63,642 bases of DNA from Alphaproteobacteria bacterium (GTDB lineage Bacteria; Pseudomonadota; Alphaproteobacteria; Thalassobaculales; Thalassobaculaceae), in NCBI GenBank assembly GCA_024742605.1, contig JANSYC010000016.1, positions 1 to 63,642 of the forward strand. Direction: 5' to 3'. Both the position numbers and the translations under genes were made by a program. Under the pieces are notes generated by a model. The model had not been told where the DNA came from. It made no database searches and worked only from the letters and a program-made list of their open reading frames with translations. The first letter of the stretch is position 1. Every line of letters begins with the position of its first letter. Shown here piece after piece: positions 34,438 through 35,570 of the stretch.

Positions 34438-34941
34438 CTATTGCAGTGCCTTCCGGCAAGCCGCCGCGAGCACCGCCTGCTCAGGGTCGCCCAGGGGCTC
34501 ACCGTTGAACGTCAGAGCGCCGCTCAGAGTGTCGAATGTCACGGCTCCCAGCTTGGCCTCTCCGATCGGCGAAAGCGGCGAGTCGGCATCAACCCCGTAG
34601 TCCGACAGGACATCAACAGTCAAATCGAATTGGATCTTGTCCGGAAGCTTTAGGAAATTGGTTCCCGGCAGGTCGGCGGCCGCCACCGCATTTCCCCTGA
34701 CGTCAACACCCGGCCTGTAGGCAACGTCCGCATCGGGCACATGACGAACGAGACGTCGACAAACCGCCTCGGAAACAGAAACTTCCGTCGTACCGGTGTT
34801 CTCAATCGATTGCGCAGAGGCCGAAGGGACAGTTCCGCCTATTTGAAGAGCCGCCCCTGCCGATAAAATCACCAGCGCACCGAAGAGCCCTGTCTTCACC
34901 ACGGCGATATATCGGAGGATCCGCCTTGTTGCGACATACAT
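34438..34941 (-). CDS. exported hypothetical protein
   Basis: 167 aa with a typical signal peptide: basic N-terminus (R-R-I-L-R), hydrophobic core (T-G-L-F-G-A-L-V-I-L-S-A-G-A) and A-S-A-Q at about residues 42-45 as a likely cleavage site. The mature part contains V-C-R-R-L-V-R-H-V-P-D-A-D-V-A-Y-R-P-G-V-D-V-R-G and a final C-R-K, hence two Cys. I recall similar proteins of unknown function in Rhodospirillales. The start at 34941 follows GGAGAGAAG; ATG 34956 lies just upstream. No function can be given. Confidence 0.75.
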   Translation of the reverse strand: MYVATRRILRYIAVVKTGLFGALVILSAGAALQIGGTVPSASAQSIENTGTTEVSVSEAVCRRLVRHVPDADVAYRPGVDVRGNAVAAADLPGTNFLKLPDKIQFDLTVDVLSDYGVDADSPLSPIGEAKLGAVTFDTLSGALTFNGEPLGDPEQAVLAAACRKALQ

Positions 34942-35077
34942 CCGGCTTCTCTCCATCCAGATTTGTTAGAACCATATCAATTCGGGTCTTTCAGCGCACA
35001 AAAATTAAGAAAATTTAAAAAATCGGGTGACGTGCCCAGTCCGCTGTCGTATGATCCGTAACGAACAAAAAAAAGAC
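34942..35077. other. AT-rich upstream region without recognised gene
   Basis: Contains runs such as A-rich and T-rich tracts around 35000-35030 and the A runs at 35066-35085. Probably holds the promoter of the exported protein (minus strand); no gene seen. Confidence 0.4.
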
Positions 35078-35223
35078 AAAAAAAACCGCACCAGCACAAA
35101 AACTGGTACGGCCCGAGTTTAGGGAGGAAACGCCAGTAGGCGCTGTTGATCGGCTCACCGATCAACACAAATAAAGTAGGGCCAGACGAGCAGAGCGGCA
35201 AGGAGAAATACTCCTTCCCGCTC
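35078..35223 (-). ncRNA. candidate structured small RNA with anti-Shine-Dalgarno motif
   Basis: A chain of hairpins with no convincing gene. Read on the minus strand: a 13-base-pair stem with one mismatch (35193-35223), a perfect 8-bp stem with a four-base loop (35146-35165), a short stem CGCC/GGCG (35131-35142), a linker TTTCCTCCCTAAA (35118-35130) that would be single-stranded and complements ribosome binding sites, then a stem at 35086-35111 followed by eight T, a good intrinsic terminator. These are the parts of trans-acting sRNAs of alphaproteobacteria. The plus strand also ends in a terminator (35193-35230), so the opposite orientation cannot be excluded. A weak TTG-started peptide frame overlaps on the minus strand. 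Confidence 0.42.
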
Positions 35224-35230
35224 TTTTTTT
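35193..35230 (+). terminator. strong hairpin with T run, plus-strand orientation
   Basis: Arms 35193-35205 and 35211-35223 pair with a single mismatch, followed by seven T (35224-35230). There is no plus-strand gene upstream back to the hairpin after gcdH, so it either ends a plus-strand RNA starting within 34.95-35.1 kb or is the 5' stem of the minus-strand RNA. Confidence 0.5.
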
Positions 35231-35318: not shown

Positions 35319-35570
35319 TCAGAATGGGCCCTTAACAGACTCCCGGAAGGAATACAGGTCCGCTTCGATCAACCCCCAGGCGACACACCAGAGAACCGCC
35401 GCGATCAGAGTGGCGGCGATCAGCTTCTTGACGATCAACGGGTTTGCAGGGGCGCTGCTCGCATGTCCCGCGTCCTGCACATCGGGCACTCGGACGCCAA
35501 TCGGCAGGGCCATAAAGAAAACCAGCCACCACAGCAGCACGTAGACGACGATTCCCGACGCGATATCCAT
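35319..35570 (-). CDS. DUF1467 family membrane protein
   Basis: 83-aa protein with two transmembrane helices (residues ~3-24 and ~48-68) joined by V-R-V-P-D-V-Q-D-A-G-H-A. The W-W-L-V-F-F-M-A-L-P-I-G-V motif is the DUF1467 signature; function unknown. Its position right after mce, with a 2-base gap, is widely conserved in alphaproteobacteria. Last gene of the long minus-strand run that begins at nuoA. Confidence 0.88.
   Translation of the reverse strand: MDIASGIVVYVLLWWLVFFMALPIGVRVPDVQDAGHASSAPANPLIVKKLIAATLIAAVLWCVAWGLIEADLYSFRESVKGPF

Follow-up and report, generated by a model that had tools for sequence, protein, structure and literature searches.

The stretch of DNA analysed here (the window, 63,642 nucleotides in length) carries, between two protein-coding genes on its minus strand, a locus from which two fully overlapping small RNAs are predicted, one on each strand. 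The genes neighbouring the locus encode an acyl-CoA dehydrogenase, a 172-residue protein without a Pfam match, a DUF1467 protein, a glyoxalase-family protein and ribonuclease J. The features of the locus and of the genes on its two flanks are as follows:

34438 to 34956, minus strand: neighbour gene for the 172 amino acid protein without a Pfam match, with a relative next to each of the 16 copies of the locus in the DNA that was fetched
35027 to 35055, plus strand: predicted antisense promoter GTGACG-N17-TATGAT
35063 to 35230, plus strand: predicted antisense RNA of about 168 nt that spans the whole sRNA, with both of its signals, promoter and terminator, retained in 15 of 16 copies and a start placed by convention
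35071 to 35148, minus strand: body of an alpha-r8 (suhB/mmgR, RF00519) sRNA, with hairpin, seed and terminator, located by Rfam match
35083 to 35114, minus strand: terminator stem of the sRNA, then U8 at 35085–35078, from the consensus terminator scan and from folding
35110 to 35134, plus strand: GGCCCGAGUUUAGGGAGGAAACGCC, the segment complementary to the seed region in each of the genome's two alpha-r8 copies
35121 to 35130, minus strand: the seed UUUCCUCCCU, an anti-Shine–Dalgarno 10-mer identical to the alpha-r8 10-mer given in the available part of PMC12559287
35144 to 35167, minus strand: additional hairpin on the 5′ side of the body matched by Rfam, from folding, with a hairpin at this place in all nine copies that have an intact minus-strand sRNA
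35173 to 35201, minus strand: probable sRNA promoter TTGCCG-N17-TACTTT; TTGCCR-N17/18-TANNTT is found in 8 of 16 copies
35192 to 35230, plus strand: predicted antisense terminator (stem 35192–35224, T7 35224–35230), from folding and from covariation among relatives
35319 to 35570, minus strand: neighbour gene for DUF1467 (PF07330), beside 15 of 16 copies

The minus-strand RNA is a diverged member of the alpha-r8 family and a second copy besides the normal one found elsewhere in the genome. RF00519 matches the minus strand from 35148 to 35071 over model positions 1–77 of 77, scoring 41.3 bits against a cut-off of 41, and other Rfam families reach 12–17 bits on either strand, far below their own cut-offs. 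The initial annotation described a small regulatory RNA of alphaproteobacterial plan with an anti-Shine–Dalgarno linker and outward terminators on both strands, all of which is supported here, but it left the RNA ‘unassigned’ and ‘not clearly one of’ the known alphaproteobacterial sRNAs. The Rfam search that it proposed corrects this: the family fits the minus strand over its full length, if just above the cut-off, and a new RNA family is ruled out. In the available text of PMC12559287, alpha-r8 RNAs are defined by the single-stranded 10-mer UUUCCUCCCU, a weak hairpin ahead of it and a terminator; in the window the 10-mer (35130–35121) sits after a weak hairpin, as that definition asks, and a Rho-independent terminator is present on the minus-strand RNA.

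The individual elements that had been listed for the locus are all in the sequence, namely the hairpins (among them those at 35130–35143 and 35144–35167), a T8-ending terminator on the minus strand, a T7-ending terminator on the plus strand and a CCTCCC element. Six pieces taken from the two strands were folded, and every one was more stable than all 200 of its dinucleotide shuffles (z −3.6 to −8.0). The CCTCCC linker had been called unpaired, which it is in the centroid fold but not in the minimum-energy fold, where CCC pairs weakly with a nearby GGG. The minus-strand terminator of the window has three G–U pairs when read on the minus strand and none on the plus, with energies of −19.3 versus −10.9 kcal/mol. 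The conservation of stems that it had been proposed to check is seen in nine orthologues, in which all 135 cells of hairpin 2 and the minus terminator stem are paired, although this supports the stems only mildly because 11 of the 15 pairs never vary; the 5′ hairpin stands outside the count, its left arm being misaligned between genera in that alignment. To judge from the promoter, the 5′ end of the predicted minus-strand RNA probably lies near 35166, and the −35 box of that probable promoter falls within the stem of the plus-strand terminator. Dependence on Hfq belongs to the traits of the alpha-r8 family, and the genome has a gene for Hfq. A minus-strand frame of 74 amino acids with a TTG start (34977–35201) also spans the sRNA, probably by chance.

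The other alpha-r8 copy of the genome (C113:33480–33550, 44 bits with RF00519) has a fatty acid desaturase gene and a frame without a Pfam match as its closest examined neighbours. According to the accessible part of PMC12559287, alpha-r8 loci adjoin N-formylglutamate amidohydrolase in most species, a position not required of extra copies; Pfam searches found no N-formylglutamate amidohydrolase among the five neighbours in the window or the four of the C113 copy. Ten weak RF00519 matches (E 0.002–0.1) were also seen in the genomes, and the eight of these that were examined all lack the seed at the match. The 14 normal alpha-r8 copies found among the relatives carry GCCC in the 5′ hairpin loop and GGGC just ahead of the seed in 14 of 14 rows, a pair of motifs that could possibly act as a switch or form a pseudoknot. 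Three genomes of genus g43 have three tandem alpha-r8 copies each within about 600 bases (G067:C7:54432–55030, G176:C4:3801090–3801687 and G256:C1:743793–744391).

Of 36 genomes of the order, 16 showed the seed pattern: 14 in the normal copy, 15 in the studied locus and 13 in both. A sixteenth copy of the studied locus, in genome G006, has a changed seed and adjoins DUF1467; the exception with regard to DUF1467 is the copy of G005, which keeps the other flank only. Three genomes (G022, G023 and G006, 81–88% complete) yielded no normal alpha-r8 copy. In six relatives that lack the studied locus, the loci fetched showed no relative of the 172-residue gene. The N-terminus of this protein resembles a signal peptide by eye, and in the loci of genus g2 the sequence AAATGATAACGATTCTCAT lies upstream of the neighbour gene and has what we take to be a resemblance to a Fur box.

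Alignments of the locus copies reveal two conserved blocks outside the sRNA, one holding the predicted plus-strand promoter, past the sRNA terminator, and the other the plus-strand terminator. The interval first marked out (35078–35230) holds the items described for it but leaves out the promoter block. The pattern xxGACx-N17-TANNNT, a rule framed after the alignment had been seen, is present in 15 of 16 copies with a spacer of 17 each time, and from promoter to the CCGAGTT complementary segment there are 42–46 nt, or 57 in the window, whose U-tract is longer. The exception is G006, which reads GTGGCC-N17-TAACCT at this place. Over the 15 copies similarity is higher in the hexamers (0.82 and 0.84) than in the spacer (0.55) and the flanks (0.58 and 0.65), and in shuffles of four copies (500 each) a match with the same spacer and distance arose in at most 0.2%, any match at all in 3–7%. 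A consensus scan of the window gave three terminators where 1.8 were expected and one promoter where 0.6 was expected; such totals are near chance, so the significance of these elements comes from the relatives.

When one rule is applied to both parts, promoter and terminator are present together in 15 of the 16 locus copies, the 15 genomes concerned representing six genera of one family and not being independent of each other. Neither part was found at the corresponding place in any of the 14 normal alpha-r8 copies, nor in any of 54 other alpha-r8 sites; the latter number derives from 55 distinct seed sites in 58 loci less the locus copy of G022 itself, which was the sole match, and the 58 control loci, some of the 14 normal copies among them, were drawn from the best-scoring matches of their searches. 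With the limit on distance lifted, the scan picked up one match in the 14 normal copies (in G000, 158 nt away and with a spacer of 18).

Counting against an antisense promoter is the fact that it shares its gap with the 172-residue gene at 34438–34956, a relative of which adjoins the locus in all 16 copies; conservation in the first nine copies extends to further short motifs in that gap. The hexamers might then be regulatory sites of that gene and no promoter at all. We regard this as improbable, since the exact 17-base spacer and the near-constant distance to the complementary segment fit a promoter aimed at the plus-strand terminator, and since that terminator itself needs a transcript.

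That terminator had been noticed from the start as an element of the plus strand, but that it is predicted to end a separate conserved antisense unit with a promoter of its own went unrecognised. The consensus scan listed the minus terminator and passed over this one because a C·C mismatch breaks the plus stem. Among 11 distinct rows of relatives, its pairing holds in 89.5% of cells, compared with 38–50% when the arms are slid, and its covariation score of 0.406 (0.254 in shuffles) is reached by none of 500 shuffles; the number of pairs changed on both sides and the number of pair types are not outstanding, being reached by 31 and 85 of 500 shuffles, respectively. G–U pairs in this stem are more numerous on the plus than on the minus reading in 11 of 16 copies, equal in five and fewer in none. 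The hairpin folds better on the plus strand in 12 of the 16 copies and on the minus strand in four (the window, by 3.5 kcal/mol, G031, G027 and G002). We also considered whether the hairpin at 35192–35224 is solely a minus-strand terminator of a DUF1467 operon and rejected this, there being no U-run after it on the minus strand in the window. In g2, where a T-run follows the hairpin on the minus strand too, just after DUF1467 (loci L111–L113, L115 and L116), it may terminate the DUF1467 operon as well as the antisense RNA.

The RNA predicted to run between these two signals is 133–158 nt long in the other copies, somewhat shorter than in the window. No plus-strand frame of at least 50 amino acids crosses it in the window, and across the 16 copies all frames of at least 20 codons that start inside it run past its end. 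A ribosome-site-like sequence precedes such a frame in one copy only (G023), which also has the one complete frame of at least 12 codons inside the RNA. On the basis of this survey, a protein encoded on the plus strand is ruled out.

What the antisense RNA does have is a segment complementary to the alpha-r8 seed. By computation, GGCCCGAGUUUAGGGAGGAAACGCC pairs fully with its own sense strand and at 24 of 25 positions with the normal alpha-r8 copy of the same genome. Wherever both loci are present (13 genomes), the segment pairs with the normal sRNA at 22 to 25 of its 25 bases: 24 in seven genomes, 25 in G005, and 21 plus one G–U pair in the five genomes of g2. In the last of these groups (5/5) the seed on the minus strand reads CUUCCUCCCU instead of UUUCCUCCCU, and the changed base still gives a G–U pair with the normal copy. 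Seed pairing was used for these comparisons in place of full-length duplex energies, which mix in very long-range pairs. The antisense strand of any alpha-r8 copy is bound to be complementary to other copies, so that complementarity alone proves little, and a U in the plus segment faces a U in sRNAs of the normal type in 13 of 15 copies; we count both points against an antagonist role.

The sense sRNA exists in two states. Nine copies (in genera g1, g3, g5 and g12) have a strong minus-strand terminator, with −19 to −24 kcal/mol against −11 to −16 kcal/mol on the plus strand, and in these the wobble pairs of the terminator fall on the minus reading; eight of the nine have TTGCCR-N17/18-TANNTT ahead of the sRNA, the ninth, G005, being without it. 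In the other seven (five of g2 and two of g6), no TTGCCR-N17/18-TANNTT promoter was found, the minus-strand terminator is weak and a search with RF00519 at E up to 1 leaves the minus strand unmatched. The full plus unit is nonetheless kept in six of these seven copies with a degraded sRNA. The seventh is that of G006 (87% complete), with its changed seed, weak plus parts and no normal alpha-r8 copy found; the g6 genome G023 (81% complete) has kept the plus unit although no normal copy was found there either, an observation at odds with a strict coupling of unit and normal copy. A FastTree phylogeny of five genes from 22 genomes (one or two genes are missing from several rows) separates g1, g3, g5 and g12 from the rest with a support of 1.000, but because the tree is unrooted apart from its midpoint, loss of the sRNA in g2 and g6 and gain in the other genera both fit. 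A single-gene tree, built from 22 of 25 loci, lacked the strength to place the genera.

Terminators insulate genes, and it is conceivable, if unlikely, that the minus-strand alpha-r8 sRNA alone matters and that the plus terminator serves to stop stray transcription towards the convergent DUF1467 and glyoxalase-family genes. The match to RF00519, the strong minus terminator in nine of 16 copies and the promoter match in eight would all fit such a reading, whereas the plus promoter is conserved together with the terminator and both stay in six of the seven g2 and g6 copies in which the sRNA is degraded.

We therefore lean, with moderate confidence, towards an antagonist: the sequences predict two fully overlapping sRNAs, the antisense one of which would antagonise alpha-r8 by pairing with the seed. 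From the minus strand an alpha-r8 sRNA would be made whose UUUCCUCCCU seed would block ribosome-binding sites. From the plus strand, transcription would start at its own promoter just past the sRNA terminator and end at its own terminator over the sRNA promoter; it would thereby pass across the minus promoter, whose −35 box falls within the plus terminator. The antisense RNA would pair over the seed of its own sense partner in cis and, the seed regions being nearly identical, over that of the normal alpha-r8 copy as well, so that it would act in cis and probably also in trans, the pairing covering the seed. Computation shows that the minus RNA belongs to the family, that the plus-strand promoter and terminator are conserved and that the segments are complementary; the production of both RNAs, their pairing in the cell and a part for Hfq or RNase III are what we infer.

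A further proposal, which we make tentatively and hold to be possible rather than probable, is that the conserved gene of the locus is the plus-strand RNA and not the minus-strand sRNA. The RNA would then be a dedicated trans-acting sponge of alpha-r8 that was born as the antisense of an alpha-r8 copy and has outlived its decayed sense sRNA in g2 and in one g6 genome. To our knowledge, the origin of RNA sponges is unclear. If the proposal is true, a sponge built separately from CrfA of Caulobacter has arisen for the same problem, and has done so opposite its target sRNA. An antisense unit kept across genera, whether the sense sRNA is intact or worn, would make the birth of a sponge directly testable, and would suggest that the need for an antagonist of alpha-r8 RNAs extends to more than one alphaproteobacterial order.

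Among the closest known systems is CrfA, which in Caulobacter pairs over the seed of SisA–D with Hfq, as determined by probing, mutants and RIL-seq, and which as a sponge lowers the levels or activity of alpha-r8 RNAs in the cell and is induced by carbon starvation (PMC12559287, available sections). Both cases have a second RNA with a G/A-rich segment that pairs with the alpha-r8 seed, but the predicted plus-strand RNA is exactly antisense to an alpha-r8 copy, and those sections do not describe CrfA in this way; the comparison is one of descriptions only. In layout, the locus is like that of CJnc180 and CJnc190 of Campylobacter jejuni, an overlapping pair of sRNAs on opposite strands in which CJnc180 is a cis-encoded antagonist of CJnc190, itself an sRNA targeting a ribosome-binding site (PMC8687705, in the part available). 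Here too one RNA is the predicted cis antagonist of a trans-acting sRNA, although organism and RNAs are unrelated and action in trans, expected here, is left open in that part of the source.

SdsR and RyeA of Escherichia coli are likewise mutually cis-encoded sRNAs, acting through mutual decay and transcriptional interference (PMC6610125, available part), and the overlapping layout with separate promoters raises the idea of an RNA-only toxin–antitoxin pair with the antisense RNA as antitoxin. We give this very little credence: the RNAs are different ones, nothing at the locus points to toxicity, and MmgR and SisA act on carbon storage, transporter and metabolic genes, so far as the available text of PMC12559287 goes.

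With the alpha-r8 RNAs themselves (MmgR of Sinorhizobium meliloti, SisA–D of Caulobacter crescentus), the minus-strand sRNA shares a full-length covariance match, UUUCCUCCCU after a small hairpin and a Rho-independent terminator. It is unlike them in scoring barely above the cut-off, in its strong extra 5′ hairpin and in its conserved antisense unit, which was not found at the 14 normal copies and the 54 other sites. Titles and abstract openings of the open literature on MmgR, suhB RNA, alphaproteobacterial sponges and Thalassobaculum sRNAs mention no antisense RNA of alpha-r8. The sRNA thus belongs to a known family, and what appears to be new, as far as those titles and abstracts show, is the conserved antisense unit, which would make the locus a fresh version of a known arrangement, an sRNA with an RNA antagonist.
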